The notes under the pieces are model-generated. The model saw nothing but the letters and a program-made list of their open reading frames with translations. It searched no databases and had not been told where the DNA came from. Below, one piece after another: positions 11,101-37,284 of a stretch of DNA of 37,284 nt. Origin of the DNA: Lachnospiraceae bacterium. GTDB taxonomy: Bacteria; Bacillota; Clostridia; Lachnospirales; Lachnospiraceae. The position numbers and the translations under genes are program-made. The first letter of the stretch is position 1. Every line of letters starts with the position of its first letter. Where the stretch lies: NCBI GenBank assembly GCA_024681775.1, contig JAILAF010000051.1:1-37284 (forward strand). Reading direction: 5' to 3'.

Positions 11101-11832
11101 GCATACCTTCTGCAGAGCACACGGGATTATTTTGTAAACGACAGGGTTGTCAGTAATTTCCTGTTTGAACAGCTGGAGAAGCGCTTTCTGGAGGGGGCTG
11201 AGCTCCCGGAGGTCAGTGCGCTGGCACTGCTGAAATACTATACGGAGAATCCTTCCGTCCTCACCGATGAGAGCAGAAAGCTGGCACTGCATCTGCTGGA
11301 CCGGGAGATGAACCACCGGGTCCACATGGGATATTTTAAGACCTTCCTGGACGACGGGCTCTTCCCGCCGGGGAAGATGCGGGACCGGCTGGAGCTGATC
11401 CTGGACGAGCTGTCGGACAAGATGGTGGTGGAATACCACGCAAGGCCCGGCTGCGCTGCGCGGATCCACTATGTGATCGCAGGGAACGGCAGGGAGGATT
11501 ACGAGTACGAAGAGGAGTACATGCAGGAAGTCTGTGACGGCGTGTGCTTTAAGGAATTTGTGATCTTTTTCGGTGAGAGCCTGCAATACTATATCACCGA
11601 GGAATACCGCGCGAAACTTCCGGACGGCAGTGTGACGGAGGAAAGCGAGCTCACCCAGAGCGGTGATCTGCAGAGGAGCGATATCACGGGCGAGGTCCGG
11701 GAGGGCAGATTTGACGCCATCAACGACATGCTCATCAGTCTTACCCTGCAGGACTACGGCACCTTTGACCAGATGCTGGGAGAGTACAGACGCAAGGAAT
11801 ATCTGAACGGAGAACTGTTCCGGTTATTGTAG
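8170..11832 (+). CDS. DUF5717-like giant protein, 1220 aa
   Basis: The N-terminal part has two beta-rich, Ig-like domains (about 1-120 with CEGSFHVLSRPG... and GSFHIISNLGEYYIPFVV; and about 195-300 with LSFTFSPSTAGLQEKEIEIL). The middle (about 300-1050) is a long array of helical, TPR-like repeats. The C-terminal 170 residues are again beta-rich (VVEYHARPGCAARIHYVIAG, then YYITEEYRAKLPDGS). No signal peptide or TM helix is present, so it should be cytoplasmic. From memory this matches the DUF5717 family of Lachnospiraceae, whose function is unknown; a search would confirm. It is the first gene of a four-gene operon with an Hsp70/actin-fold protein, a TPR-like protein and a membrane coiled-coil protein, suggesting that it is a scaffold or client-binding part of a complex. 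Confidence 0.85.
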   Translation: MRSKLEHILEGDFTTEERALDFSCTKVEISISPQEPCEGSFHVLSRPGTATTGFVTSSDMRMELMQTRLSGSDTEIGYRFHSELCLEGDVIKGSFHIISNLGEYYIPFVVTVEHPYVDSSIGQIRNLFHFANLAKSNWKEAVTLFYSPDFERVLTGNDEQYLEAYHALSAIPENERNLEEFLLHINKKQPLEYLTRTPELSFTFSPSTAGLQEKEIEILRNGWGYTHLEIETCGEFLFTERTVLNDDDFLGNICYLRLFFDISHMGSGRHYGKVILKGGSIRLEIPVEIHLGSTVPGKSTQRTKKEIACRISELYLQMRLKQLSTKQWMSRTGKLVEQLADMDGKDIMARLYQAQLLITDSRSNEAGWLLDQSADLLEEAQRDRLYPEKELDFIFCYHSYLTTLVRTEEEYALSEAARVERVYRRGDYDWRVGWLMLYLPTEVSRSLPRRWALLEELYYNGCTSPILYMEGLLALNQNPLIVRKVSGFASQVLLFGARRHALAQESMEQVLFLFEKERTYQPLLLRAMTLLYKDYGDKRLLQEICEQLIKGRRSDAEALEWYRLGVDAQMKLPNLYEMYMASIDLTGMREIPRPVLLYFSYANQLDAEHTAYYYHYLIRNRREVPEILDSVRENMAAFALDQIRKGRIDRHLAAIYDEVLQPSHLERGIAQSLADLIYSGWLTTDHTGIRKAYVYQKGFTKPWEYDIRDGKGWVSVYGNDYLITLEDEYGNRYLRSVDYTLEKLMLAGRFQRPIAEQVWDNPRLNYLICLGEHGDVEAHKDNISRFQFLAEYDALSPALRRTLAFKALDYYREAGEDKQVQIALRKLDTAGMNAVEKNRYFTFLCFREDLTEAMDYLADNTPYFAEPALLKRVLDQVLSQEREMSPVHQRVLYFGSVRLLNRGKADTPTILYLMEHYQGLSKELRDIWRTAGNMNLPRAALEGRLLTQLLFTGAFVGEQDEIFRSYAENDGDERVVLAYLLQSTRDYFVNDRVVSNFLFEQLEKRFLEGAELPEVSALALLKYYTENPSVLTDESRKLALHLLDREMNHRVHMGYFKTFLDDGLFPPGKMRDRLELILDELSDKMVVEYHARPGCAARIHYVIAGNGREDYEYEEEYMQEVCDGVCFKEFVIFFGESLQYYITEEYRAKLPDGSVTEESELTQSGDLQRSDITGEVREGRFDAINDMLISLTLQDYGTFDQMLGEYRRKEYLNGELFRLL

Positions 11833-11840
11833 ACAGAAGC

Positions 11841-11880
11841 TTGAAAGAAAACGCTGACGCGCTTTTCTCTTCTCGGAGGA
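11841..11880 (+). repeat. short hairpin repeat that supplies the SD
   Basis: Starts with TTGAAAGAAAACGC and continues TGACGCGCTTTTCT. The first 28 bases match the start of the purC leader repeat at 15340-15367 with one mismatch. AGAAAA-CGC (11846-11854) pairs with GCG-c-TTTTCT (11859-11868). The element then ends with TCTTC...GGAGGA, as the longer purC copy does, and its GGAGG (11875-11879) is the ribosome binding site of the next gene. Confidence 0.75.
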
Positions 11881-11886
11881 AGAGCT

Positions 11887-13179
11887 ATGCTGAAGATCCC
11901 CGGGCCCTTTGGAAGCGGGAACAATCGATATATCGTTGGCTTTGACCTGGGCGAACTGCGCAGCGGCATCAGCTTTATGCTTCAGGACGGATCGATGGAG
12001 TCCGTCTCCGCCGTGCTGGGGGAGGAGCAGTTTGCCATCCCTACGGTGCTGGCAAAGCGCCTGGGGGCCGGGCAGTGGTTCTATGGTGCGGAGGCCGTAT
12101 CCTTTGCGGAAAAGGAGGAGGGCATCCTGGTGGATCACCTCCTGAGCAGGGCCATCAGCGGGGAGAGCGTTCTGGTGGACGGCAATCTCTATCAGCCCGT
12201 TTCCCTCCTGACGCTTTTTGTGAAGCGCGCACTGAGCCTCTTAAACCCTGTGGGTTCCCTGGATCATATCGTGGCCATCCTCTTTACGGTGGACACGCTG
12301 GATGCGGACCACATGCGGGTGCTGCGGGAGATGGCTGCGGGTCTGAAGCTCAAGACCGACAAGGTCTACTTCCAGAGCTATACCGAGAGCTTTTACCATT
12401 ACATGATCGGACAGCCCCCGGAGTTGTGGATGGGCGGCAGCATGCTGATGGATTACAGCGGAGAGCGGATCCGGGTGCTGAAAATGGCGACGAATCCCAA
12501 TACTTCGCCCGTGGTGGTCTACATCGACGAGACGGAATATCCCTTCTCCCGGATGCCCAGGACCAATATCCCGGATGAGGACTACGAGCTGCGGCAGCTG
12601 GATCAGGCCTTCCTGAATCTCTGCGAAGAGGTGCTGTCGGACAACCGCCCCACCAGCGTCTTCCTCATCGGAGAGCAATTCTCCGACACCTGGATGAAAC
12701 AGTCCCGGACCTATCTGGTGACGGGTTTTCGGGTGTTCCGCGGCAGCAACCTCTACAGCAAGGGGGCCTGCATGGGCCTGCGGAACCGTTTGAATGCCAC
12801 GGAGGAATCGAAAAATCACGTTTTCCTGGGCAATGAGAAGCTCAGTTCCAACGTGGGTATGAAGATCCTGCGGCAGGGAGAGGAGGTCTACCTGGCACTG
12901 CTGGATGCCGGCGTGGACTGGTTCGAAGCGGACCGGGAGTTCGACCTGTATCTGCAGGGCGGCAATCAGGTGGAGTTCGTCATCACCGGGCTGGTAAAGG
13001 GATCCTCCCGCATCGCCCGGATGACGCTGGAACATTACGAAGGAGAGCTTTCCCGCTTCCGTGCCCATCTGCACCTGGCGGACGAAAAGCATCTGGAGAT
13101 CTCACTGGAGGATCTGGGGCTGGGAAGGATCAGGCCCTCCTCCGGTAAAGTATGGACGGAAATGGTGGAGCTGGATTAA
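11887..13179 (+). CDS. DUF5716-like actin/Hsp70-fold protein, 430 aa
   Basis: Residues about 16-24 (IVGFDLGEL) read as the phosphate-1 motif of the actin/Hsp70 ATPase fold. Further landmarks are a PTVLAKR strand (about 55-61), MDYSGERIRV (about 190-200), which fits the phosphate-2 position, and SVFLIGEQFSDTW (about 257-269), which fits the adenosine motif (usually GG in Hsp70; here GEQ). The last 110 residues (VGMKILRQGEEVYLALLDAG...) are a beta domain that occupies the place of a substrate-binding domain. By memory this is the DUF5716 family. I infer an ATPase-fold partner of the DUF5717 protein, possibly chaperone-like or a degenerate pseudo-ATPase. Start ATG follows GGAGG by 7 bp, within the repeat. 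Confidence 0.8.
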   Translation: MLKIPGPFGSGNNRYIVGFDLGELRSGISFMLQDGSMESVSAVLGEEQFAIPTVLAKRLGAGQWFYGAEAVSFAEKEEGILVDHLLSRAISGESVLVDGNLYQPVSLLTLFVKRALSLLNPVGSLDHIVAILFTVDTLDADHMRVLREMAAGLKLKTDKVYFQSYTESFYHYMIGQPPELWMGGSMLMDYSGERIRVLKMATNPNTSPVVVYIDETEYPFSRMPRTNIPDEDYELRQLDQAFLNLCEEVLSDNRPTSVFLIGEQFSDTWMKQSRTYLVTGFRVFRGSNLYSKGACMGLRNRLNATEESKNHVFLGNEKLSSNVGMKILRQGEEVYLALLDAGVDWFEADREFDLYLQGGNQVEFVITGLVKGSSRIARMTLEHYEGELSRFRAHLHLADEKHLEISLEDLGLGRIRPSSGKVWTEMVELD

Positions 13180-14036
13180 TGCGCATCTGTATCAGCATCG
13201 GAGAATACACATCAAATCCATATTATGTGCCCGGTCTGGAAGTGCCTGCTTTCTGCATTGAGGAGCTCTGCGTCCTCCTGACGGAAAATGCGGTGCTGCT
13301 GGACGAGACCCTGCTGAGCAGATCCCTGGTGGACTGGATCCGGCTGGAGTGCTGTCTGCCCGAGCTGGCGGATGCCCTGACGCCCCTGGTGCAGAAAAGC
13401 GGTACCGTGAGCGCCCTGGTGGTCATGATCCTGGAGTATGTGGGGCTTTACTCCCCGGAGGAGATCGGCGAATGCCACAAGGTGCTGCTCTCCGGAGCGG
13501 GGCTTTCTTCCATAGAGAAGCATAAGCGACAGATCGACGGGATGGTCAGGGAGAAAAAATACCGTCAGGCAGTCCGGGGATATCAGTCCCTGGTGCGGAA
13601 ATGGGAGGACGTAAAGTCGGATGACGCGGCAAAACTCCCTGCGGGAGAGGTGCTGGCCTCCATTCACCACAACATGGGTGTGGCCTACGCCGGGATGATG
13701 AAATATCATCTGGCGGCGGAGGCATTCCTGCGGGCGGAGCAGATCTGCCCCGAGGAGCGGGAGCATTCCATGTCCTATCTGGCGGCAAAGCGCATGGAGC
13801 TTTCCGATGAAGAATATGTGGCGCTGGCGGCGGATCACCTGGATCAGTTCCGCAATTCCCTGGTACTGGAAAAAACAATGGATGCCTTAAACAAGGCCTG
13901 GAAGATGTCCCCCGAGGCAAAACGCCTGGAGGAGAGAGGATCCGTCCATGATACGCAGTCCGAGAGCTATTTTGAGGAGAACGGACGGATCATGGCAGGT
14001 CTGATGGCCAGCTACCGTGAATCGGTGGGAGAGTAA
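13179..14036 (+). CDS. TPR-like helical protein, 285 aa
   Basis: The start ATG overlaps the stop of the previous gene (TAATG), indicating translational coupling; an earlier in-frame ATG at 13152 would lie inside that gene. The N-terminal part (about 1-110) is helical and hydrophobic but not membranous. The middle (about 115-215) has TPR-like helix pairs: REKKYRQAVRGYQSLVRKWED, then IHHNMGVAYAGMMKYHLAAEAFLRAEQICPE, the latter a good TPR match. The C-terminus is a charged helix. No signal peptide. I infer an adapter or co-chaperone for the DUF5716 and DUF5717 proteins, from the coupling and the TPR-like fold; this is untested. Confidence 0.8.
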   Translation: MRICISIGEYTSNPYYVPGLEVPAFCIEELCVLLTENAVLLDETLLSRSLVDWIRLECCLPELADALTPLVQKSGTVSALVVMILEYVGLYSPEEIGECHKVLLSGAGLSSIEKHKRQIDGMVREKKYRQAVRGYQSLVRKWEDVKSDDAAKLPAGEVLASIHHNMGVAYAGMMKYHLAAEAFLRAEQICPEEREHSMSYLAAKRMELSDEEYVALAADHLDQFRNSLVLEKTMDALNKAWKMSPEAKRLEERGSVHDTQSESYFEENGRIMAGLMASYRESVGE

Positions 14037-14039
14037 CGG

Positions 14040-15230
14040 ATGGGATTCTGGAAATACCTGTTTTCAAGAGAACGCTTTTTGCGAAAGCGCGAGAAATCCC
14101 GGGAGGAAGAGGACTGGGAAGAGATCTCCCTGAGCTCGGAAACCGTGGACTTTCACGATCAGGAGCAGCGCAGCCGCTATATTTCCGACTGTCTGGAGCA
14201 GATGGCGGAGGCATCCCGTGAGGCGGAGCTTTTGAGCGGCGAGTACAATATGGTCACCTCCTACCTCACCGACATCGAGGAGATCGAGGCACTGCCCGAG
14301 GCGCAGCGACAGGAGGTCAATGCGGCGGCTTCCGCCCTCGTCGGCCTGGAGCGGGATATGAAGGCCTTTCGGGAGCGGACCAACAAGCTGACGGATGCGG
14401 AATACTACACCCTGCGGAAGCAGGAGGACGAAGTGGAGGAGGGCATTGCAAAGCTCCGGGAAAACGAGCAGATGGCCATCCTCATCAAGAAGGACCTGCG
14501 CCGGCTGGACGGAGAGCGCCACGCCTGCGAGTTCCGGGCGGAGGAGCTGGAGGGCCAGATGAACAACGCCAGGGGGATGGTCACCATCTTCCTGACAGCC
14601 TTTGTGGCGCTGATGAGTCTGTTGCTCATCCTGCAGTTCGGCTTGGGGATGAATGTCTTCGTGGGCTATATCCTTGCCATGGGCGCCGTGGCAGTGGCCA
14701 TGACCGTGGTTTACGTCCGCTACACCGATGCGGAGAAGGATCTGCGGAAAGTAAGCCGGGAGTTAAACCGAATCATCCAGCTGCAAAATACGGTGAAGAT
14801 CCGCTATGTGAACAACCGAAAGCTCCTGGAGTATCTGTACCTTAAATACAATGTCAGCAGCGGAGAAAAGCTGGAGAAGCTCTGGCGGATCTACCAGCAG
14901 GAGAAGGAGGAGCGGCGGCAGTACACGGAGTCGGAGGCCAAATCCGACTTTTACTCCAAGCAGCTCATCACCACCCTCCTGGGATATCGGGTTCGGAACC
15001 CGGAGCGCTGGGTCCACCAGGTGGAGGCTCTGCTGGACAAGCGGGAAATGGTGGAGATCCGCCATGCCCTGATCCTGAGACGTCAGTCGCTGCGGGAACA
15101 GATCGAGTACAACCGGGGGCTGGCTACGGAGGCCAGCGACGAGATCAAGCGGGTGGCGAGAGAATATCCCGGCTACGCGCGGGAGATCCTGGAGATGACC
15201 AATGCCTTCGAGGCTGTGGGCAGAGAGTAA
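14040..15230 (+). CDS. two-TM coiled-coil protein, 396 aa
   Basis: The gene starts 3 bp after the previous stop. The N-terminus is basic (WKYLFSRERFLRKREKSR), followed by a long coiled coil (about 45-180; many E/R/L heptads such as EVEEGIAKLRENEQMAILIKKDLRRL). Two adjacent TM helices lie at about 181-203 and 205-227 (MVTIFLTAFVALMSLLLILQF and VGYILAMGAVAVAMTVVYV). A second coiled coil follows (about 232-396). Both ends should face the cytoplasm. It probably anchors the three soluble operon products at the membrane. No family name is recalled. It is the last gene of the operon; the following 226 bp contain the purC leader. Confidence 0.82.
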   Translation: MGFWKYLFSRERFLRKREKSREEEDWEEISLSSETVDFHDQEQRSRYISDCLEQMAEASREAELLSGEYNMVTSYLTDIEEIEALPEAQRQEVNAAASALVGLERDMKAFRERTNKLTDAEYYTLRKQEDEVEEGIAKLRENEQMAILIKKDLRRLDGERHACEFRAEELEGQMNNARGMVTIFLTAFVALMSLLLILQFGLGMNVFVGYILAMGAVAVAMTVVYVRYTDAEKDLRKVSRELNRIIQLQNTVKIRYVNNRKLLEYLYLKYNVSSGEKLEKLWRIYQQEKEERRQYTESEAKSDFYSKQLITTLLGYRVRNPERWVHQVEALLDKREMVEIRHALILRRQSLREQIEYNRGLATEASDEIKRVAREYPGYAREILEMTNAFEAVGRE

Positions 15231-15274
15231 TGCGGCAGCCGCATGAATTCCATGGCTTTTGTGGAAACTGACGA

Positions 15275-15303
15275 TTGTATTTTACCGGTGAATTCGGTAT
15301 TGT
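15275..15303 (+). promoter_or_regulatory. possible promoter for the purC operon
   Basis: TTGTAT (15275-15280) and TATTGT (15298-15303) are spaced by 17 bp, upstream of the hairpin leader. Both hexamers deviate from consensus, so the call is tentative. No purine riboswitch consensus was seen in the leader. Confidence 0.4.
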
Positions 15304-15338
15304 GGTATTTGGTGTTTAAAATACTGCGCGGAGGATTG

Positions 15339-15450
15339 TTTGAAAGAAAACGCTGATGCGCTTTTCTTTCAAACCGGAATTGGTGCATATAAGTGCACCA
15401 ATTCCCCAATTCAGGGAAATCGCATACGCGATTTCTCTTCATGGAGGAGA
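15339..15450 (+). repeat. long leader repeat with three hairpins before purC
   Basis: Three successive hairpins fill this stretch. Hairpin 1: TTTGAAAGAAAA (15339-15350) with TTTTCTTTCAAA (15362-15373), plus an inner CGC/GCG. Hairpin 2: GGAATTGGTGCA (15376-15387) with TGCACCAATTCC (15394-15405), perfect 12-bp arms. Hairpin 3: GAAATCGC (15416-15423) with GCGATTTC (15428-15435). The element ends in TCTTCATGGAGGAG, giving the purC ribosome binding site. The beginning and end match the shorter element at 11841-11880. The remaining part of the 15231-15456 gap holds only the possible promoter. Confidence 0.8.
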
Positions 15451-15456
15451 AAAATT

Positions 15457-16326
15457 ATGGAAATGAAGCCGATCAAAGAGGGAAAAGTCAGAGAGATCTA
15501 CGAAGCGGGCGATCACCTGATCATGGTGGCGACCGACCGCATCAGCTGCTTCGATGTGATCCTGAACAATCAGGTCACGGACAAGGGAAAGGTGCTGACC
15601 CAGATCTCAAAGTTCTGGTTTGACATGACCGGAGACATCGTTCCCAATCACATGGTTTCCACCGATGTGAAGGATATGCCAGAGTTCTTCCAAAATGAAA
15701 AGTTCGAGGGACGCAGCATGATGTGCCGGAAGCTGGAGATGCTTCCCGTGGAGTGCATAGTCCGCGGCTACATCACCGGCAGCGGCTGGGCAAGCTATCA
15801 GAAGGACGGCACCGTCTGCGGCATCCGTCTTCCCGAGGGACTGAAGGAGTCCCAAAAGCTCCCTGAGCCCATCTACACTCCTTCCACCAAAGCAGAGATC
15901 GGCGATCATGATGAAAATATCTCCTATGAGCAGAGCGTTGCGCATCTGGAGAAGTTCTACCCCGGCAAGGGTGAGTATTATGCGTCTCAGCTCCGGGATC
16001 TGACCATCGCCCTGTATAAGAAGTGCGCGGACTATGCGCTGACCAAGGGCATCATCATTGCAGACACCAAGTTCGAGTTCGGCCTGGATGAGAAGGGCAA
16101 CATCGTCCTGGGTGACGAGATGCTTACCCCCGACAGTTCCCGTTTCTGGCCCCTGGATGGCTATGAAGAGGGCAAGAGCCAGCCTTCCTTTGACAAGCAG
16201 TTCGCAAGAGACTGGCTGAAGAGCCATGAGGGCCACAACTGGACCCTGCCCCAGGAGATCGTGGACAAGACCATAGACAAATATCTCCAGGGCTACGAGC
16301 TTCTCACCGGAAAGCCCCTGAAATAA
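15457..16326 (+). CDS. purC: phosphoribosylaminoimidazole-succinocarboxamide synthase
   Basis: SAICAR synthetase joins CAIR and aspartate using ATP in de novo purine synthesis. Family landmarks visible: KEGKVREIYEAG at the start, VATDRISCFDVIL (about 24-36), VECIVRGYITGSGW (about 98-111), IIADTKFEFGLDEKG (about 200-214) and GDEMLTPDSSRFW (about 220-232). At 289 aa it belongs to the long form, closer in length to yeast Ade1 than to the roughly 240-residue Bacillus form. I chose the ATG at 15457, since GGAGG lies 9 bp upstream and the family starts here; the frame is open upstream to a TTG at 15340 with its own GGAGG. Followed by purB and purA. Confidence 0.97.
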   Translation: MEMKPIKEGKVREIYEAGDHLIMVATDRISCFDVILNNQVTDKGKVLTQISKFWFDMTGDIVPNHMVSTDVKDMPEFFQNEKFEGRSMMCRKLEMLPVECIVRGYITGSGWASYQKDGTVCGIRLPEGLKESQKLPEPIYTPSTKAEIGDHDENISYEQSVAHLEKFYPGKGEYYASQLRDLTIALYKKCADYALTKGIIIADTKFEFGLDEKGNIVLGDEMLTPDSSRFWPLDGYEEGKSQPSFDKQFARDWLKSHEGHNWTLPQEIVDKTIDKYLQGYELLTGKPLK

Positions 16327-16375
16327 GAAACAATTCTGATCTATTGACAGAATGTCAATCGAAAAAGGAGTGTAT

Positions 16376-17827
16376 ATGGCAACCGATATTTACAGCAGTC
16401 CTCTTTCCGAGCGCTACGCCGGCAAGGAGATGCAGTACCTGTTTTCACAGGACAAGAAATTCCGCACCTGGAGAAAGCTCTGGATCGCTCTGGCGGAGAC
16501 TGAGATGGAGCTGGGCCTCTCCCAGGACGGCAAGCCCGTTATCACGCAGGAGATGGTCGATGAGCTGAAGAGCCATGCGGAAGACATCAATTACGATGTG
16601 GCAAGGGAGCGGGAAAAGCAGGTCCGCCATGACGTCATGAGCCATGTCTATGCTTACGGACAGCAGTGCCCCAAGGCGGCAGGCATCATCCATCTGGGCG
16701 CCACTTCCTGCTATGTGGGCGACAATACCGACATCATCATCATGAAGGAAGCGCTGCAGCTGGTCCGCAGAAAGCTGCTGAATGTCATGAAGGAACTGGC
16801 TGATTTTGCTGATAAGTATAAGGATCAGCCCACCCTGGCCTTCACCCATTTCCAGCCTGCACAGCCCACCACCGTGGGAAAGCGCGCCACCCTCTGGCTG
16901 CAGGAATTCGCCATGGACCTGGAGGACCTGGACTATGTGATGGGGAGCCTGAAACTCCTGGGATCCAAGGGAACCACCGGCACCCAGGCATCCTTCCGGG
17001 AACTCTTCAATGACAATGATGAGATCATTGATAAGATCGATCCCATGATCGCAGCAAAAATGGGCTTTGAAGCGTGCTACCCCGTGTCCGGGCAGACCTA
17101 TTCCCGGAAGGTGGACACCAGAGTGGCGAATGTCCTGGCAGGCATCGCAGCCTCCGCCCACAAGATGAGCAACGACATCCGTCTGCTGCAGCATCTGAAG
17201 GAAGTGGAGGAGCCCTTCGAGAAGAATCAGATCGGTTCTTCCGCCATGGCATACAAGAGAAATCCCATGCGCAGCGAGCGCATTGCATCCCTGTCCCGCT
17301 ATGTGATGGTGGATGCTTTAAATCCCGCCATCACCTCCGCTACCCAGTGGTTTGAGCGGACCCTGGACGACTCCGCCAACAAGCGTCTCTCCATTCCCGA
17401 GGGATTCCTGGCAGTGGACGGCATCCTGGATCTGTGCATGAACGTGGTGGACGGCCTGGTGGTTTATCCCAAGGTCATCGAGAAGCACTTCATGGCGGAG
17501 ATCCCCTTCATGGCTACCGAGAACATCATGATGGATGCCGTGAAGAAGGGCGGCAACCGCCAGGAGCTCCATGAGAAGATCCGCCAGCTTTCCATGCAGG
17601 CGGGCCGTACCGTGAAGGAAGAGGGCAAGGACAACGATCTGCTGGAGCGCATTGCCGCAGATCCCGCCTTCGGCCTGACCCTGGAAGAAATGCAGGAGAC
17701 CCTGCGCCCCGAGCTCTATGTGGGTCGTGCGCCCCTCCAGACCACCAAGTATCTGGAGACGGTGATCCGTCCCATCCTGGAGGCCAATGCGGATGTGCTG
17801 GGTATGACAGCGGATATTAAAGTATAA
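16376..17827 (+). CDS. purB: adenylosuccinate lyase
   Basis: Adenylosuccinate lyase removes fumarate at two steps of purine synthesis: SAICAR to AICAR and adenylosuccinate to AMP. The fumarase/aspartase-superfamily signature SSAMAYKRNPMRSER is present (about 290-304), as are HLGATSCYVGDNTDI (about 105-119) and TLAFTHFQPAQPTTVGKR (about 150-167) with the active-site histidine. Length 483 aa is normal for this subgroup. I use the ATG at 16376, which has AAAGGAG 5 bp upstream, instead of an in-frame ATG at 16352 that lies within a small palindrome (ATTGACA-GAA-TGTCAAT, 16343-16359). The 49-bp gap to purC contains only that palindrome. It acts directly after PurC and PurA, so the gene set makes sense. 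Confidence 0.97.
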   Translation: MATDIYSSPLSERYAGKEMQYLFSQDKKFRTWRKLWIALAETEMELGLSQDGKPVITQEMVDELKSHAEDINYDVAREREKQVRHDVMSHVYAYGQQCPKAAGIIHLGATSCYVGDNTDIIIMKEALQLVRRKLLNVMKELADFADKYKDQPTLAFTHFQPAQPTTVGKRATLWLQEFAMDLEDLDYVMGSLKLLGSKGTTGTQASFRELFNDNDEIIDKIDPMIAAKMGFEACYPVSGQTYSRKVDTRVANVLAGIAASAHKMSNDIRLLQHLKEVEEPFEKNQIGSSAMAYKRNPMRSERIASLSRYVMVDALNPAITSATQWFERTLDDSANKRLSIPEGFLAVDGILDLCMNVVDGLVVYPKVIEKHFMAEIPFMATENIMMDAVKKGGNRQELHEKIRQLSMQAGRTVKEEGKDNDLLERIAADPAFGLTLEEMQETLRPELYVGRAPLQTTKYLETVIRPILEANADVLGMTADIKV

Positions 17828-17845
17828 GAGGTAGAGGAGAGAATT

Positions 17846-19138
17846 ATGGTTAAAGCAGTTGTAGGAGCGAACTGGGGTGATGAAGGCAAGGGCAAGATCA
17901 CCGATATGATGGCGGAACAGGCGGATATCATCATCCGGTTCCAGGGTGGTGCCAATGCCGGCCACACGATCGTGAATGGTTACGGGAAGTTTGCACTGCA
18001 TACCCTTCCCTCCGGTGTCTTTTACGGACACACCACCAGCATCATCGGCAACGGTGTGGCGCTGAACATCCCCAAACTCATCGAGGAAATCGATTCCATC
18101 GTGGAGAAGGGCGTACCCAAGCCGAAGATCCTTGTGTCCGACAGAGTCCAGATCGTGATGCCCTATCACATCCTCTTTGACCAGTATGAGGAGGAGAGAC
18201 TGGGAGGCAAGGCCTTCGGTTCCACCAAGTCCGGCATCGCGCCTTTCTATTCCGACAAATACGCCAAGATCGGCTTCCAGGTCAACGAGCTTTTTGACGA
18301 GGAGCTGCTGAAGGACAAGGTACATCGCGTGCTGGAGGTGAAGAACGTTATCATCGAGCATCTCTATCACAAGCCCGCCATCGACGAGGGTGAGCTTCTG
18401 GAGACGCTGCATCAGTACCGCGACATGATCGCAGAATATGTGACGGATGTGTCGTCTTTCCTGGACAAGGCACTGAAAGAAGGCAAGACCATCCTGCTGG
18501 AGGGTCAGCTGGGTACCCTGAAGGACCCCGACCACGGCATCTATCCCATGGTCACCTCTTCCTCCACCCTGGCAGCTTACGGCGCCATCGGTGCAGGGGT
18601 TCCTCCCTATGAGATCAAGCAGATCGTTACGGTCTGCAAGGCATATTCCTCCGCAGTGGGCGCAGGCGCTTTCGTATCCGAGATCTTCGGCGACGAGGCG
18701 GATGAGCTGAGACGCCGCGGCGGCGACGGCGGAGAGTACGGTGCTACCACCGGCAGACCCCGTCGTATGGGCTGGTTCGACTGCGTGGCATCCAAGTACG
18801 GCTGCCGTCTGCAGGGCACCACGGATGTGGCATTCACCGTGCTGGACGTGCTGGGCTACCTGGATGAGATCCCTGTGTGCGTAGGTTACGAGATCGACGG
18901 TGAAGTCACCACCGATTTCCCTGTCACCACAAAGCTGGAGAAGGCAAAGCCCGTTCTGAAGACCCTTCCCGGCTGGAAGACCGAGATTCGCGGCATCCGC
19001 AACTACGATGAGCTTCCCGAGAACTGTCGCAAGTACATTGAGTTTATCGAGGAGCAGATCGGATATCCCATCACCATGGTCAGCAACGGCCCCGGCAGAG
19101 AGGATATCATCTATCGTGAGTCTCCCCTGAAGAAGTAA
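17846..19138 (+). CDS. purA: adenylosuccinate synthetase
   Basis: PurA couples IMP and aspartate with GTP to give adenylosuccinate, the first step from IMP to AMP. Hallmarks: VGANWGDEGKGKITD (about 6-20; GTP-binding loop with the catalytic aspartate), GGANAGHT (about 35-42; catalytic histidine), LLEGQLGTLKDPDHGIYPMVTSS (about 218-240) and GRPRRMGWFDC (about 303-313). At 430 aa it has the usual length. Start ATG has GAGGAGAG upstream, 18 bp after the purB stop. With purB it forms the AMP branch; a HAD phosphatase follows 13 bp downstream. Confidence 0.97.
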   Translation: MVKAVVGANWGDEGKGKITDMMAEQADIIIRFQGGANAGHTIVNGYGKFALHTLPSGVFYGHTTSIIGNGVALNIPKLIEEIDSIVEKGVPKPKILVSDRVQIVMPYHILFDQYEEERLGGKAFGSTKSGIAPFYSDKYAKIGFQVNELFDEELLKDKVHRVLEVKNVIIEHLYHKPAIDEGELLETLHQYRDMIAEYVTDVSSFLDKALKEGKTILLEGQLGTLKDPDHGIYPMVTSSSTLAAYGAIGAGVPPYEIKQIVTVCKAYSSAVGAGAFVSEIFGDEADELRRRGGDGGEYGATTGRPRRMGWFDCVASKYGCRLQGTTDVAFTVLDVLGYLDEIPVCVGYEIDGEVTTDFPVTTKLEKAKPVLKTLPGWKTEIRGIRNYDELPENCRKYIEFIEEQIGYPITMVSNGPGREDIIYRESPLKK

Positions 19139-19151
19139 GGGGTGCGATCAG

Positions 19152-19754
19152 ATGATAAGGAACATTGTATTTGACATCGGGAATGTCCTGGCAGACTTCC
19201 GCTGGAAGGGATTTATGCAGGACAAGGGCTATGACGAGGAGATGATAAAGCGCATTGCCAAAGCTTCCGTCATGACCCCCTACTGGGATGAGTTTGACCG
19301 GGGTGCCTGGTCGGAGGAAAAGACCCTGCAGGCCTTTATCTCCGAGGATCCCGGCATTGCGAAAGAGCTCCGGGAAGCATACTCCGACATCAAAGAGATG
19401 GTGACGAAGCGGGACTATGCCATCCCCTGGATCCGGGAGCTGAAGGAGCGGGGATACCGTGTGTACTGTCTCTCCAATTTCTCCAAGAAGGCTTATGATG
19501 AGTGCCGGGAGGCACTGGATTTCCTGGATGAGCTGGACGGCGGGATCCTTTCCTACAGAGAGCTTATCGTAAAGCCCAACCCCGCTATCTATAACCTGCT
19601 GCTGACCCGCTATGATCTGAAAGCTGACGAGTGTGTCTTTTTTGACGACACGGAGCGGAATGTAAAAGCAGCCATTGAATGCGGGTACCATTCTTTTGTT
19701 TTCACCACATTAGAGCAGGCGAAAGCAGACCTTAAGACTTTGGGTGTTGATTGA
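19152..19754 (+). CDS. HAD-superfamily phosphatase, YihX-like, 200 aa
   Basis: The start IVFDIGNVLADF carries the nucleophile aspartate (D8) in the DxGNV form seen in YihX-type HAD hydrolases. VYCLSNFSKKAYD (about 101-113) holds the motif 2 Ser, VKPNPAIYNLLL (about 139-150) the motif 3 Lys, and CVFFDDTERNVKAA (about 161-174) the acidic motif 4. YihX of E. coli dephosphorylates alpha-glucose-1-phosphate; the substrate here is unknown. It could be a nucleotide or sugar phosphatase. The gene is the last of the purine operon (13 bp from purA) and ends at a strong terminator. Confidence 0.88.
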   Translation: MIRNIVFDIGNVLADFRWKGFMQDKGYDEEMIKRIAKASVMTPYWDEFDRGAWSEEKTLQAFISEDPGIAKELREAYSDIKEMVTKRDYAIPWIRELKERGYRVYCLSNFSKKAYDECREALDFLDELDGGILSYRELIVKPNPAIYNLLLTRYDLKADECVFFDDTERNVKAAIECGYHSFVFTTLEQAKADLKTLGVD

Positions 19755-30045: not shown

Positions 30046-31392
30046 ATGGAAGGTAGCATTATCGAATACATCAGGGATTACGGCGGGCAGAGCTTTTCGG
30101 AGCGCCCCTTTTGCGACGTGGACGCCCTGGTGCTGAGCCAGTTCTGCTATCTGAAGTTTGACGGGCTGGTGCCGGGCCCCGATGAAGACCGGGACATCGC
30201 CCTGCAGGACCTGCCGGAGAGCCCGGAATACGAATCCCTTTTCTCGGATATCCGCTATGAAAAATCCAACCGTCCCCTGCTGCAGGAGCTCCTGCAAAGC
30301 AGGCGCTTCGGCGCTATGCGCCTGCGGGGGTATGTGAATCTGGTGGAGACGACGCCTCAGGTGCAGTTTTCCGCCATTACCTTTTTCCCGGACGGGGCAG
30401 ACATGTTCGTGGCTTTCCGGGGCACGGACGAAAACATGGTGGGCTGGAAGGAAGACTTCAACATGACCTTCATGGATGAGGTACCGGGCCAGCATCTGTC
30501 CGTGGAATACCTGGAAAAAGCAGCCACCTGGAGTAAGGAATCCTTCCTGGTGGGAGGCCATTCCAAAGGCGGGAACCTTTCGGTGTACAGCGCCATGAAC
30601 TGTTCTCCGGAAACGAGACAGCGGATCCGTAACATTTATTCCATGGACGGGCCGGGCTTCCGGGATGAAGTTCTGGAGGGCAGTGCCTACCTGGAAATCC
30701 GGGACCGGATCGTGAAGATCCTTCCGGAGTCCAGCATGGTGGGGATGCTGATGGAGTCGGACTCCAATTACAGCGTCATTAAGAGCAACAGCTTCGGCCT
30801 CACCCAGCACAATCCCTACACCTGGATGGTGGAAGGTACGGACTTTGTCCGGCGGGAGAAGGTGGACAGCAGAGTGCTGGCCCTGGACGATGCGGTGAAC
30901 GACTGGATCCTTGCCCAGGATAATGAGAGCAGAGAGTCCTTTGTGGATGCGGTCTACGGGATCTTTTCCTCCTGCGACGCGGACACGCTGATCGACTTTA
31001 ATGCCAGCAAATACCGGAACATGTCCCAGGTCCTTTCCTCCCTGCGGGGACTGGACGAGCAGACGGTAACGCTTCTGCGGCGGATCATCAAAAACCTGGT
31101 GGAACTGTCAGGTGCCTATATGAAAACGGAACTTTCCGATGAAGCGGCCACCGCCAGAGAGGATTTAAAACGCGGTGTGGAGCGCAGGAAGGAAGAAGTG
31201 ATCCGGGGCGCGGAACGCCGGAAGGAAGAAGTGATCCGGGAGGCGGAACGGATCCGGGAAGAGCGCACGGAAAAATCCGAGCGGAAAAAGGAAGAACGGG
31301 CGGAGAAAGCAAAGCGCAAAACAAAGCGTAAGGCTAAGAACGACGCGGAACAGAGCGGCACGGAAGAGAGCGCAGGCCCTGATAAGCAGTAA
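30046..31392 (+). CDS. DUF2974/Mbeg1-like alpha/beta-hydrolase, 448 aa
   Basis: The N-terminal 330 residues match the Mbeg1-like (DUF2974) lipase-fold family: SIIEYIRDYGGQSFSERPFCDVDALVLSQFCYLKFDG at the start, then VAFRGTDENMVGWKEDFNM (about 124-142) and GGHSKGGNLSVYSAMN (nucleophile Ser173 in GHSKGG). Residues about 370-448 form a highly charged, probably helical tail with an 11-residue repeat (RRKEEVIRxAE) and a Lys/Arg-rich end. No signal peptide or TM helix. The gene takes the place at the head of the ATP synthase genes where atpI often sits, only 14 bp before atpB, so it should be co-transcribed. Substrate and link with ATP synthase are unknown. Confidence 0.85.
   Translation: MEGSIIEYIRDYGGQSFSERPFCDVDALVLSQFCYLKFDGLVPGPDEDRDIALQDLPESPEYESLFSDIRYEKSNRPLLQELLQSRRFGAMRLRGYVNLVETTPQVQFSAITFFPDGADMFVAFRGTDENMVGWKEDFNMTFMDEVPGQHLSVEYLEKAATWSKESFLVGGHSKGGNLSVYSAMNCSPETRQRIRNIYSMDGPGFRDEVLEGSAYLEIRDRIVKILPESSMVGMLMESDSNYSVIKSNSFGLTQHNPYTWMVEGTDFVRREKVDSRVLALDDAVNDWILAQDNESRESFVDAVYGIFSSCDADTLIDFNASKYRNMSQVLSSLRGLDEQTVTLLRRIIKNLVELSGAYMKTELSDEAATAREDLKRGVERRKEEVIRGAERRKEEVIREAERIREERTEKSERKKEERAEKAKRKTKRKAKNDAEQSGTEESAGPDKQ
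31183..31248 (+). repeat. 33-bp tandem repeat within the DUF2974 gene
   Basis: Two copies (31183-31215 and 31216-31248) share the core GGAAGGAAGAAGTGATCCGG and encode RRKEEVIRGAE and RRKEEVIREAE in the charged tail. The repeat keeps the reading frame. Confidence 0.85.
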
Positions 31393-31406: not shown

Positions 31407-32096
31407 ATGGAACGGATTGCGGAAGAATTGATGGCCCAATTGAATGCGGACACAGCCTTCACGATCCGGCTGGGAGGACTGGAGATCCCCGTTGCGGAAT
31501 CTACCGTCATCAGCTGGGTGGTGATCGGGATCGTGTTGATCCTGTGTCTCATCCTGACGGCCGACCTTAAGGTCAAGAACATCTCCAAACGCCAGGCCCT
31601 GGCGGAACTCATCGTCACAAAGCTGCAGGGCATGGTGGAAGGCATGATCGGCGAGGAAGGAAAGGAATATATTCCCTATCTGGTGTCGGTGCTGATCTTC
31701 ATCGGATTTTCCAACATCATCGGCATCTTCGGGATGAAACCTCCCACCAAGGATATGAACGTCACGGCGGGACTGGCCATCATGAGCATTGTGCTGGTGC
31801 AGATCGCTTCAATCCGGAAAAAGCGGGTGAAGGGATGGCTGAAGAGCTTTGCACAGCCCATGGCGGTGGTGGCGCCCATCAACATCCTGGAGCTGGTGAT
31901 CAAGCCATTGTCCCTGTGTATGCGACTCTTTGGTAATGTGGTGGGTGCTTTCGTCATCATGGAACTGTTAAAGACCGTGGTACCCATTCTGGTGCCGACG
32001 GTATTCAGCCTGTATTTTGATCTCTTTGACGGACTGTTGCAGGCATATGTCTTTGTATTTTTGACCAGTATGTACATTCGTGAGGCCGTGGAGTAA
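31407..32096 (+). CDS. atpB: F-type ATP synthase subunit a
   Basis: Membrane subunit that forms the ion half-channels of the F0 sector. About five to six TM helices are visible. The essential stator arginine is R173 in KPLSLCMRLFGNVVGA (about 166-181), and the final helix has FDGLLQAYVFVFLTSMYI, with the conserved Gln/aromatic pattern. 229 residues is normal. AAAGGA lies 11 bp upstream of the ATG. It starts the ATP synthase genes a-c-b-alpha-gamma-beta-epsilon. Confidence 0.96.
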   Translation: MERIAEELMAQLNADTAFTIRLGGLEIPVAESTVISWVVIGIVLILCLILTADLKVKNISKRQALAELIVTKLQGMVEGMIGEEGKEYIPYLVSVLIFIGFSNIIGIFGMKPPTKDMNVTAGLAIMSIVLVQIASIRKKRVKGWLKSFAQPMAVVAPINILELVIKPLSLCMRLFGNVVGAFVIMELLKTVVPILVPTVFSLYFDLFDGLLQAYVFVFLTSMYIREAVE

Positions 32097-32134: not shown

Positions 32135-32353
32135 ATGGTAGCACTTGGAGCGGGAATTGCGGCACTGTCATGTATCGGAGCAGGTTTGGGACTGGGCATC
32201 GCCACCAGCAAGGCTTGTGAAGCCTGTGCGAGACAGCCTGAGGCTGACGGCAAGATCATGCGTCTTTTGCTTTTGGGCGGCGCCCTTGCGGAGGCAACGG
32301 CTATTTACGGATTCGTTATCGGTATCCTGATCATTCTGTTTATGGGGGCATAA
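32135..32353 (+). CDS. atpE: F-type ATP synthase subunit c
   Basis: Two-helix hairpin of 72 residues that forms the rotor ring. The polar loop is ARQPEADGK, and the ion-binding carboxylate is E53 in [13 protein letters not shown]. The residues that ligand sodium in known Na+ rings (Gln in helix 1, Ser after the Glu) are replaced by Leu ([10 protein letters not shown]) and Ala, so proton coupling is more likely, though the following Thr is retained. The start ATG has GGAGGAATGAATT upstream, 38 bp after atpB. Confidence 0.97.
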
Positions 32354-32358
32354 AACCT

Positions 32359-32853
32359 ATGCTGAGATTTGACATCAACTTATTGTTCACGGTGATCAAT
32401 GTCCTGATCCTCTTTTTCGTGGTATGGCGTTTTCTCTTAAAGCCCATCAACAAGATCCTGGATCAGCGCAAGGCTGAAGTGGAAAAGCAGTATGCCGACG
32501 CGGACGAAGCGAAGGAACTGGCAGAGCGGGCCAAGGAAAGCTATGAGAAGGGCCTTGCGGACATGGGACAGGAGCGTTCCCGCCTCATGAGCGAGAGCCA
32601 GGCCAAGGCCAGCAGAGAATACGAGAACATCATCGCCACCGCCCGGAGCGAAGCGGAGACCATCCTCTCCAACGCCCGGATCAACGGCGAAGAGGAAAAG
32701 CGCCGCCGCATCAAGCAGGCCAGCGAGGAGATCGCCGTGCTGGTAACGGAGGGTACCGCCAAACTGGTGGCTTCCAAGGACAGCGCGGAGAACGACAAAG
32801 AACTGCTGGATGAATTCCTGAGAAGAGCCACGGAGGACAATGCCACGGAGTAA
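32359..32853 (+). CDS. atpF: F-type ATP synthase subunit b
   Basis: Peripheral stalk subunit with one TM helix at about 6-26 (INLLFTVINVLILFFVVWRFLLKPI) and a long amphipathic, coiled-coil cytoplasmic helix rich in Ala, Glu and Arg. 164 residues is the usual length. Its C-terminus normally docks on the C-terminal domain of delta, which here is fused to alpha encoded by the next gene. The gene starts 5 bp after atpE, and only 27 bp separate its stop from the alpha start, so no separate delta gene fits between them. Confidence 0.94.
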   Translation: MLRFDINLLFTVINVLILFFVVWRFLLKPINKILDQRKAEVEKQYADADEAKELAERAKESYEKGLADMGQERSRLMSESQAKASREYENIIATARSEAETILSNARINGEEEKRRRIKQASEEIAVLVTEGTAKLVASKDSAENDKELLDEFLRRATEDNATE

Positions 32854-32880
32854 CGGCATCCTTCGGAAAGGATATGAATC

Positions 32881-34656
32881 GTGAGTAAGAAGAAAAAAAT
32901 ACCGGAGGCCGTGCTCTATTATGTGACTCCGCCCACGAAGGAACAGCTGGCGGGAATCCGTGCGTTTGTCAACGAAAAATACGGAGATAAGACCGGTAAC
33001 GGGCCGGAGATTCCCTTTACCGCGGAGCAGGACACGACCCTTGGAGGCGGATTTATCCTGCAGGTGGGTAATGAAGTCTACAACTGGAGTACCGAAGGCA
33101 GAGTCGGTGCTCTGAAGCGTAAGATGGACAGCCTGCGCCGGAAGCTGAGCTATGAGAACAGGGATGTGATTCCCTTGATCCATACCACTATCAGCGAGTT
33201 CGAGCTCAGCGCCAAGTTCCGTACCATCGGCATGGTCACTTATGTAGGTGACGGCATCGCCCATATCGAGGGGCTGAATCACTCCAAATACGGAGAGATC
33301 ATCCTCTTTGAGTGTGGCATCAAGGGCATGGTGCAGAACATCGAGGAAAATTCCATCGGCGTCATCCTCTTCGGTTCCGACAGAGAGGTTCGGGTGGGCT
33401 CTAAGGCTGCCAGAACCTACATGAGCGCCGGCATCCCTGTGGGAGACGGCTTCCTGGGCCGTGTGGTAAACGCCCTGGGAGAGCCCATCGACGGCAAGGG
33501 CTTCATCGAGGAGGACGAGTACTTCCCCGTGGAACAGCCCGCACCCTCCATCGTGGACAGACAGAGCGTGTCCGTTCCCATGGAGACCGGTATCCTGGCC
33601 ATTGATTCCATGTTCCCCATCGGCAGAGGTCAGCGTGAGCTCATCATCGGCGACCGTCAGACCGGCAAGACCTCCATTGCCATGGAGACCATCCTGAACC
33701 AGAAGGGGAAGGATGTGATCTGCGTCTATGTGGCCATCGGACAAAAGAACTCCACCGTGGCCAGCCTGGTGAACAATCTGAAAAAGCACGGTGCCATGGA
33801 CTATACCGTGGTGGTAAGCGCCACCGCATCCGATCCTGCACCCCTGCAATACATCGCACCCTATTCCGGCACCTCCCTGGCGGAGTATTTCATGCATGCC
33901 GGCAAGGATGTGCTCATCGTGTACGATGATCTGTCCAAGCACGCGGTGGCTTACCGTATGCTGAGCCTGCTGCTGGAGCGTTCTCCCGGCCGTGAGGCTT
34001 ATCCCGGAGACGTTTTTTACCTGCATTCCAGACTGCTGGAGCGCAGTGCCAGACTGTCCGATGAACTGGGCGGCGGTTCCATTACGGCCCTTCCCATCAT
34101 CGAGACCCAGGCGGGAGATGTATCCGCCTATATTCCTACCAACGTGATCTCCATCACCGACGGTCAGATCTACCTGGAGAGCGAGCTCTTTAACCTGGGT
34201 ACCAGACCTGCCGTGAACGTGGGCCTGTCCGTGTCCCGTGTGGGCGGCGCAGCCCAGACCAAGGCCATGAAAAAGGCGGCGGGCAGCATCCGTATCGATC
34301 TGGCCCAGTTCCGCGAGATGGAGGTGTTTACCCAGTTTTCCTCCAATCTGGATGAGGTGACCAAGAGCCAGCTGGCGCACGGCCGCGTGCTGATGGAGCT
34401 CTTAAAGCAGCCCCTGGGCAGACCCCTTTCCATGGCGGAGCAGGTGGTGACCCTGGTGGCCGCCAATGCGCATCTCATGGAGGACATCCCCGTGGAGAAG
34501 GTGAAGGCCTTCCAGATGGAGATGCTGGAATTCTTTAACGCGGAAGCGGATGCCGTCATGCATGAGATCACGGTGTCCAAAGTACTGAACGAAGAGACGA
34601 AGCAGACTATCATCGAGAAAGCGACGGAATTTGCGGAGGCCGTAAAGAAGAGATAA
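32881..34656 (+). CDS. atpA: ATP synthase alpha subunit with N-terminal delta C-domain
   Basis: 591 residues versus about 500 for normal alpha. Residues about 95-591 are a regular alpha subunit: FRTIGMVTYVGDGIAHIEGL, Walker A GDRQTGKT (257-264), IYVPTNVISITDGQIYLE-type stretch with SAYIPTNVISITDGQ, and the alpha C-terminus. Residues about 10-88 read as the C-terminal domain of delta/OSCP: VTPPTKEQLAGIRAFVNEKYG, then TLGGGFILQVGNEVYNWSTEGRV, as in delta (GGFxxxxGxxxxDxSxxGRLxxL). The delta N-terminal six-helix domain is missing. The start is GTG at 32881 with AAAGGA upstream; a stop codon (TGA 32875-32877) directly upstream in frame proves that the protein cannot start earlier. Confidence 0.93.
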   Translation: MSKKKKIPEAVLYYVTPPTKEQLAGIRAFVNEKYGDKTGNGPEIPFTAEQDTTLGGGFILQVGNEVYNWSTEGRVGALKRKMDSLRRKLSYENRDVIPLIHTTISEFELSAKFRTIGMVTYVGDGIAHIEGLNHSKYGEIILFECGIKGMVQNIEENSIGVILFGSDREVRVGSKAARTYMSAGIPVGDGFLGRVVNALGEPIDGKGFIEEDEYFPVEQPAPSIVDRQSVSVPMETGILAIDSMFPIGRGQRELIIGDRQTGKTSIAMETILNQKGKDVICVYVAIGQKNSTVASLVNNLKKHGAMDYTVVVSATASDPAPLQYIAPYSGTSLAEYFMHAGKDVLIVYDDLSKHAVAYRMLSLLLERSPGREAYPGDVFYLHSRLLERSARLSDELGGGSITALPIIETQAGDVSAYIPTNVISITDGQIYLESELFNLGTRPAVNVGLSVSRVGGAAQTKAMKKAAGSIRIDLAQFREMEVFTQFSSNLDEVTKSQLAHGRVLMELLKQPLGRPLSMAEQVVTLVAANAHLMEDIPVEKVKAFQMEMLEFFNAEADAVMHEITVSKVLNEETKQTIIEKATEFAEAVKKR

Positions 34657-35571
34657 ATGGCAACGATGCGTGAACTTTCTGCCCGCATTCGCAGCGTGCA
34701 GGATACCATGAAAATTACAAATGCCATGTATATGATCTCCTCCACGAAGCTGCACAAGGCGAGACGGGAGATGGACAACAACTCCCCCTACTTTCTCGCC
34801 CTGCAGAAAATGCTGGCCCACATTCTGGTGTCCCTGCCGGAGATCGACCATCCCTACCTGGATCTGCGCCCCGAGAAAAAGGGGAAGAACCGGGTCCGTG
34901 CCATTGTCGTCATATCCGGTGACAAGGGACTGGCAGGCGCCTACAACCACAATGTGCTGCGGCTGGTGGAGAGCATGCTTTCCGGTCCGGAACAGACTTT
35001 GCTGTACGTGGTGGGAGAGGTAGGAAGGTCCTATTTTGCTTCCCGCCGGATCCACATGGAGGGACAGTTCCGTTACACTTCCCAGAATCCGACTCTGCAC
35101 AGGGCCCGGGTCATTTCGGAGAAGCTCCTGGAGGACTTCCGGGAAGGCGCCGTGGACGAGGTGGATCTGGTCTATACCACCATGCCCAATTCCATCACCA
35201 GCGTTCCTGCGGTGATGCCCCTTCTGCCCCTGCGGAAAAAAGATGTCCTCAGCAGACTGCCGAAGAACATTAAGATCCCGGAGGAGGAACTGAATTTCCA
35301 GCCCTCCCCCCAGAGCATTCTGGACAATATGGTGCCGGATCTGCTGGTGGGCTATGTGTACAGTGCGCTGGTGGATTCCTATTGCAGTGAGCAGAACGAC
35401 CGTATGATGGCCATGGACGCCGCAAATCGGAACGGGCAGGAGATGATCCGCACCCTGTCCATGGAATACAACCGTGTCAGACAATCCGCCATTACCCAGG
35501 AGATCACGGAGGTGATCGCCGGAGCGAAGGCGCAGAAGAAAAAGAAAAAGCAAAGGAGGCCCGAGGGTTAA
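34657..35571 (+). CDS. atpG: F-type ATP synthase gamma subunit with basic C-terminal tail
   Basis: Central rotor shaft, 304 residues. The N-terminal helix (MRELSARIRSVQDTMKITNAMYMIS, with LHKAR) and the C-terminal helix (YNRVRQSAITQEITEVIAGAKA) are canonical, and the middle Rossmann-like domain carries VVISGDKGLAGAYNHNV. Most gamma subunits end right after the GAxA stretch; here QKKKKKQRRPEG follows, a strongly basic tail. The ATG abuts the alpha stop codon (TAAATG), and the ribosome site is weak (AGAAGAGA), so translational coupling is expected. Confidence 0.95.
   Translation: MATMRELSARIRSVQDTMKITNAMYMISSTKLHKARREMDNNSPYFLALQKMLAHILVSLPEIDHPYLDLRPEKKGKNRVRAIVVISGDKGLAGAYNHNVLRLVESMLSGPEQTLLYVVGEVGRSYFASRRIHMEGQFRYTSQNPTLHRARVISEKLLEDFREGAVDEVDLVYTTMPNSITSVPAVMPLLPLRKKDVLSRLPKNIKIPEEELNFQPSPQSILDNMVPDLLVGYVYSALVDSYCSEQNDRMMAMDAANRNGQEMIRTLSMEYNRVRQSAITQEITEVIAGAKAQKKKKKQRRPEG

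Positions 35572-37284
<1,713 letters not shown>

Follow-up and report, generated by a model that had tools for sequence, protein, structure and literature searches.

How would the side stalk of an F-type ATP synthase be attached when its operon has no place for a delta gene and part of delta is found on the alpha subunit? As a rule, an ATP synthase is taken to have a single side stalk and a single a subunit. The question is raised by an operon at the end of a 37,284-nucleotide contig from a Lachnospiraceae bacterium, called the window here. On the forward strand, the operon comprises atpB (subunit a, 31407..32096; Pfam ATP-synt_A, 153 bits), atpE (subunit c, 72 aa, 32135..32353; ATP-synt_C, 64 bits), atpF (subunit b, 164 aa, 32359..32853; ATP-synt_B, 60.5 bits), a fused deltaC-alpha gene (32881..34656), atpG (gamma, 34657..35571; ATP-synt, 300 bits), atpD (beta, 35572..37002), an ORF that served as the beta query and has homologues at the matching place of the operons surveyed, and atpC (epsilon, 36995..37282), an ORF open at its 3΄ side, cut by the contig end and assigned by its operon place in the survey. 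The order is a-c-b-(deltaC-alpha)-gamma-beta-epsilon with a single a and a single b gene, and the presence of a, b, c, alpha, beta, gamma and the incomplete epsilon in one operon identifies an F-type (F1Fo) enzyme. Immediately upstream of atpB, at 30046-31392 (+), lies a gene for an Mbeg1-like hydrolase (Pfam, 255.8 bits) whose C-terminus is repetitive and highly charged (RKEEVIRGAERRKEEVIREAER...); at 8170-19754 (+) there are DUF5717/DUF5716 genes, followed by adenylosuccinate lyase and synthetase genes and a HAD hydrolase gene.

The ORF at 32881..34656 (+) encodes an alpha subunit that is extended at the N-terminal end by the C-terminal half of delta/OSCP. Its product of 591 aa matches Pfam OSCP, ATP-synt_ab_N, ATP-synt_ab and ATP-synt_ab_C in a single frame. 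The delta C-terminal domain (residues 2-82, 32884..33126) aligns with OSCP model positions 97-172 at 27.4 bits in the whole protein, and residues 1-95 searched alone reach 28.8 bits (cut-off 22.3 in both cases); the original prediction of a 591-residue alpha preceded by the C-terminal half of delta, for which a profile search of residues 1-95 had been proposed, is thereby borne out. The match begins at model position 95-97, so the delta N-terminal domain is absent from the fusion, as had also been claimed. A profile of 21 fused N-termini matched a profile of 20 separate deltas over columns 120-202 of 212, which is the C-terminal domain only, with a probability of 98.0 and an E-value of 2.6e-13, and P18, G57, F58, S70 and R74 are invariant in the 21 aligned extensions. 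The NCBIfam delta models match the fusion far below their curated cut-offs (best 23.1 bits versus 148; TIGR01145, 22.3 versus 57.5). A junction (33127..33216), formed by the end of the last delta helix and the alpha N-terminal helix, leads into alpha proper (33217..34653; TIGR00962 atpA, 751 bits over residues 93-586, cut-off 484). Translation has a suitable start context at GTG 32881, with a Shine-Dalgarno-like GGAAAGG at 32865..32871, 9 nt upstream. An in-frame TGA (32875-32877) precedes this codon, and the b stop ends at 32853; the 27-nt gap of the window sequence is too small for a separate delta gene between atpF and the fusion, just as the original reading had it. An ATG at 32874 opens a 4-codon ORF (ATG AAT CGT GAG TAA; 32874-32888, +) that overlaps the fusion start in another frame and is possibly a leader, or due to chance.

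The predicted structure agrees with this assignment. AlphaFold2, run with 54 sequences (mean pLDDT 84, pTM 0.78), folds residues 10-88 into an alpha/beta domain of strand, helix, three strands and helix, with pLDDT blocks of 82-95 for residues 11-80; between the last delta helix (71-88) and the alpha N-terminal helix (96-106), the pLDDT is 65-71. In a fold search, the best three PDB matches by E-value were chains I, J and K of entry 9JC1 ('Engineering of ATP synthase'), aligned over 581, 574 and 584 columns with TM values over the model of 0.82-0.84, the highest among the best 50 rows; the other 47 were alpha chains aligned over 469-512 columns. A sequence-profile search of the PDB also ranked 9JC1 highest (1.2e-15), ahead of delta subunits from other ATP synthases. 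Entry 9JC1 comes from the work of Ueno et al. 2025 (PMC12229609), who deleted the N-terminal domain of the Bacillus PS3 delta and fused the remainder to alpha, so that each alpha holds a stalk. They report that delta-N sits on the three-fold axis and limits the stalks to one, that the engineered enzyme forms up to three stalks with their a subunits (two on average by gel, triple-stalk particles being rare in cryo-EM), that its H+/ATP ratio is 5.8 compared with 3.0 in the wild type, that it makes ATP at low pmf, and that its ATP-driven proton pumping is below that of the wild type. The alpha of the window thus carries the stalk-binding half of delta in a design that matches one built by engineers for two or three side stalks. 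Both have the delta C-domain on the alpha N-terminus, in frame in the window by ORF, Pfam, profile, AlphaFold2 and fold match, and both are without delta-N and a separate operon delta. They differ in that the engineered PS3 enzyme, as described, has a truncated epsilon and another linker and is the one in which stalk number was measured, while the window enzyme is natural and is known here from its sequence.

The idea that fusions of this subunit were confined to the b-delta protein of mycobacteria is outdated, given the engineered delta-alpha and the natural cases noted in the same article. The Discussion of Ueno et al. 2025 (PMC12229609) mentions natural fusions without delta-N in Acidaminococcus fermentans and under UniProt G4Q3K6 and A0A1I2C5T3; going by that description, these resemble the window fusion, which therefore belongs to a kind already noted. 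The open literature searched, a scope that leaves aside most subscription journals and all preprints, gave no other description of a delta-alpha fusion. What is added here is its extent in the family, the full-length intermediates, a recurrent loss of delta-N and two b-deltaC-alpha triple fusions. The b-delta fusion of some mycobacteria and Gordonia (PMC5709465; PDB 7jg5_d) is alike in joining delta to a subunit of the stalk, but there delta is on b, whereas here delta-C is on alpha and b is separate: the 164-aa b of the window has no OSCP match in Pfam, ends in ...ELLDEFLRRATEDNATE without an attached delta, and scores 39.7 with the B/delta model NF009961, compared with a cut-off of 328. N-ATPases also have an F-type operon without a separate delta gene, but the window enzyme is not one of them: theirs is described (PMC5709465) as starting with beta-epsilon and continuing, after one or two extra genes, with a-c-b-alpha-gamma, an order different from that of the window, and the alternate F1 alpha model TIGR03324 stays below its cut-off (618.6 versus 750.5 bits).

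The survey of relatives that the original prediction had proposed revealed a recurrent arrangement. Alpha was matched in 298 of the 299 Lachnospiraceae genomes searched; 140 operon loci were fetched, best matches first, and together with the window and the second operon of its genome these 142 loci were classified with a delta profile built from them. They comprise 54 with a separate delta beside a window-type alpha, 20 with a full-length delta-alpha fusion, 43 with a fused delta-C only (the window included), 24 canonical paralogues and one cut by a contig end (L152). The 43 and the 20 fused loci come from 63 different genomes, so at least 63 of the 299 family genomes carry a fusion, a lower bound as lower-ranked matches were not all fetched. 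The first in-frame start codon of a fused gene is never more than 78 nt past the b stop (the maximum, in L146), and often there is overlap with b; L098 is without a separate b. Pfam OSCP alone places the fused delta-C above the cut-off in 37 of the 43 delta-C-only genomes and below it in five, and misses that of G044, which the family-built profile detects at 24 bits. One genome, G141, has three F-type operons, with a separate delta (L112), a deltaC-alpha (L116) and a canonical arrangement (L171), and one full-length fusion (L048, G294) has an ORF of 758 codons, some 80 more than its relatives. Long N-terminal extensions, signal-like in those read, were seen on the subunit c frames of 19 of the 43 delta-C-only loci (L096, L097, L115, L121 and 15 others), compared with none of 20 full-length, one of 53 separate-delta and three of 23 canonical loci, with frames read from stop to stop; these 19 loci make up exactly one supported clade of the alpha-beta-gamma tree described below.

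If every alpha chain carries delta-C, each F1 should hold three of these domains, unless unfused alpha is also made from an internal start. A start codon with a Shine-Dalgarno match of at least 5 nt was present in the junction of none of 42 deltaC-alpha loci and one of 20 full-length fusions (L042, a TTG with a 5-nt match); unfused relatives had one at the start of alpha in 53 of 53 cases, and the 630 control windows in 7%. Starts with a 4-nt match occur in 12 of the 42 and three of the 20 junctions and in 33% of the 630 control windows, and ATG 33124 of the window, with only such a match, is at chance level. Loci in which the alpha barrel start was not found by its motif were dropped from these counts (L150, delta-C-only; L148, separate delta; L152; and 20 of 24 canonical rows), and the canonical control (4/4) is weak for this reason. 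A conserved internal start yielding unfused alpha can thus be rejected, and three delta-C domains per F1, as originally proposed, are the expected state on sequence grounds, although proteolysis could still free some alphas.

We propose, with a probability of about 0.58, that the window encodes a working F-ATP synthase, probably of the proton type, that has the stalk-binding half of delta built permanently into alpha and extra stalks as part of its normal function. The b2 stalk would dock on a delta-C anchored to F1 by the alpha chain itself and not by delta-N. Every F1 would have three delta-C domains, each able to receive a b2 dimer; with delta-N gone the three docking places would be equivalent, and one to three b2-a units may attach, as they do in the engineered enzyme. 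With additional a subunits around the ring, more ions would pass per ATP, and ATP could be made at low ion-motive force. By analogy with the PS3 enzyme of matching anatomy, a natural multi-stalk assembly is likely, and besides the in-frame OSCP domain, the fold matches to 9JC1 and the lack of junction starts, it is supported by the delta-C-only genomes, 18 of 43, that showed no separate complete delta. The difficulty raised at the outset, of three domains for two b helices, changes accordingly in part: three domains are still expected, but the mismatch need not hold, as the engineered enzyme is reported to bind up to three b2 dimers. Against the proposal stands that the number of stalks depends on the supply of a and b, which is beyond what a sequence gives, that proteolysis could release some alphas from the fusion, and that 20 loci keep delta-N in the fusion; since three delta-Ns cannot all occupy the axis, a fusion alone does not need extra stalks.

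These 20 loci also speak for a single stalk, an explanation to which we give a smaller but still substantial share of the probability. Here one of the three delta-C domains would bind b2 and two would stay idle; the fusion would be a covalent replacement of the contact between delta-N and alpha, so that delta-N became redundant and was lost. In full-length delta-alpha enzymes delta-N should still limit the stalks to one, the window operon has single a and b genes, and repeated loss of delta-N after the fusion is what redundancy predicts; its loss may be that of a redundant anchor. On the other side, the engineered enzyme took two stalks on average, and the truncation of epsilon is reported for it and for its one-stalk comparator alike (PMC12229609).

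The phylogeny bears on this point. Trees were inferred by a fast LG+G4 'quick' method, from alpha alone (142 rows; 64 of 139 inner branches open) and from concatenated alpha, beta and gamma of 79 loci (all 63 fused loci plus 16 of the 54 that have a separate delta; 1268 columns, 25 of 76 inner branches open). In the concatenated tree delta-C-only and full-length fusions interleave, with supported mixed sister pairs L053/L051 (100), L061/L063 (99), L041/L047 (97), L045/L077 (96) and L054/L055 (96), and the window falls in a supported set (95) of four delta-C-only and two full-length loci. A single clade of all delta-C-only rows was rejected (lnL 752 lower, p-AU 9e-130), while a single clade of all fused rows was not (p 0.41), so that the simplest reading is probably a fusion that took place once or a few times, after which delta-N was lost independently on many occasions. 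The order from fusion to delta-N loss is deduced from these trees, and recombination at the locus could also swap the states. In the alpha-only tree the states interleave too, but besides a main fused group of 57 rows there are two full-length (L131, L119) and five delta-C-only loci (L059, L061, L065, L108, L135) outside it, which would mean several fusions, and a single one fits less well. The existence of full-length fusions argues that the fusion came first for another reason, for example a fixed supply or assembly, and that the loss of delta-N came second.

Two loci carry the fusion one step further. L212 (5425-7731; uncultured Clostridiales RUG282) is a single frame that leads from a b-like segment (42.6 bits) through delta-C (50.6 bits) into alpha, and adjoins a separate b (67.7 bits), these two being all the b matches of that genome; a b-like segment on alpha beside a separate b provides material for three b/b' pairs, which favours extra stalks. 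L098 (4056-6389; G068, 96% complete) is a single frame of 778 aa with b (Pfam, 65 bits), delta-C (OSCP, 29 bits) and alpha (alpha/beta nucleotide domain, 279 bits), and no other b above the cut-off was found in G068; three b for three alpha do not make three b2 pairs, which counts against extra stalks. Each triple fusion is known from one assembly, and the genus of L098 was represented by a single genome in the set. Two motifs at the end of b, a loose and a stricter one, occur in 37 and 24 of the 42 delta-C-only loci, 17 and 18 of the 20 full-length loci, 38 and 41 of the 53 with a separate delta, and five and four of the 23 canonical loci, respectively, the canonical b being mostly without either; judged from these sequences, conservation of the b end decides nothing between one and several stalks.

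It is improbable that the enzyme borrows a complete delta from a second operon and that the alpha extension is a relic. The objection named in the original prediction, a complete atpH elsewhere in the genome that is co-expressed with this operon, holds in its first half, as such a complete gene does exist: the one other OSCP match in the window genome (92% complete) is a complete delta at C120:9780-10295, and 25 of the 43 delta-C-only genomes also hold one (in G075 split over two contig ends). However, that of the window genome belongs to another complete, canonical operon (L003, G000:C120) with all eight genes in the order a-c-b-delta-alpha-gamma-beta-epsilon. Moreover, the search found no separate complete delta in 18 of the 43 genomes, 15 of which are at least 90% complete, nor in six of the 20 full-length-fusion genomes, so the fusion seems sufficient there, and the invariant residues of the extension are unlike those of a relic. 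The fused gene thus appears to be the only recognisable delta in many genomes; gaps in draft assemblies could explain some of these cases, but hardly all. The missing half of delta was not seen as a free domain either. In the window genome the OSCP search gave no delta-N apart from the complete delta, and among the 43 delta-C-only genomes the only above-cut-off match confined to delta-N, on G075 C75 (model 5-78, 90-aa frame), fits the other half of the contig-split delta (C39:12-275, model 83-171); a match on G158 C13 (model 16-81, 19.5 bits) is below the cut-off. A delta-N fused to b was rejected, as b has no OSCP match. In G062, G137 and G255 the delta match extends beyond stop codons on its upstream side, starting at model positions 22, 31 and 79, in a stretch that overlaps or abuts the b gene and may be a matter of chance or a relic of delta-N.

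The two operons of the window genome also differ in subunit c. We compared the position of the sodium-ligand glutamine of Ilyobacter tartaricus, where Q marks a Na+ c-ring; the window atpE has L at this place, and the L003 subunit c has Q and the residues ETT, the motif of sodium-type rings. Canonical paralogues have Q in 19 and E in four of 23 readable cases, and window-type enzymes have I, M or L in all 116 readable ones. Judged by this motif, the window genome seems to combine a canonical enzyme of the sodium type with a fused one that is probably of the proton type.

A sequencing error, a mis-called start or a decaying operon is the least probable explanation: the window is indeed a draft contig ending inside atpC, but a stop codon stands ahead of the GTG, the other operon genes are open, and the delta-C-only form recurs: it was seen in 43 family loci, the window being one, in 17 of the 20 loci fetched from other families and in 15 named loci among the best 80 of 589, sets that may overlap. 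Beyond the family, a class-wide search of 291 genomes gave, among the matches listed, at least 29 with a stop-free frame reaching from delta-C (query position 42 or lower) into alpha, seven of them in the family of the window. All 20 loci fetched from 14 other families (19 of the remaining 22, and G534) have delta sequence fused to alpha, 17 as delta-C only and three at full length; the alpha frame of L276 is short. Named genomes were scanned by full-length alignment, and the counts for the best 80 of 589 places are not frequencies: 20 fused, 58 with a separate delta and two without delta on the available stretch. The fused ones are 15 delta-C-only, L179, unclassed as its contig begins inside, and four full-length loci (Lachnospira sp. 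UBA5912 L177, Lachnospiraceae STD2_226 L180, a Subdoligranulum MAG L199 and an Erysipelotrichaceae MAG L211). They are mostly metagenome assemblies named by their depositors, and as many of the nearest are called Lachnospiraceae, the named loci overlap the family set and the two are not independent. The alphas of L199 and L211 have scores (604 and 601) similar to those of less closely related bacteria listed with them, and these two full-length fusions are probably further separate origins.

What do these enzymes mean for their hosts? In the engineering work of Ueno et al. 2025 (PMC12229609), delta-N proved to enforce the single-stalk rule, and the authors predicted that multi-stalk enzymes occur naturally. 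Many natural candidates for such exceptions are offered by the window and its relatives. In a tentative scenario, which we hold at somewhat less than even odds, delta became fused to alpha once or a few times and delta-N, which breaks the three-fold symmetry of F1, was then discarded repeatedly, giving rise to natural two- or three-stalk enzymes that would work at unusually low ion-motive force, and in L212 a second b on every alpha would hard-wire three stalks. The hosts probably live by fermentation in the gut, and their ion-motive force would be expected to be low. Relatives that are unfused, fused at full length, delta-C-only or b-fused can be compared directly, which makes the existence of natural multi-stalk enzymes, and their ion/ATP ratio, open to direct test.
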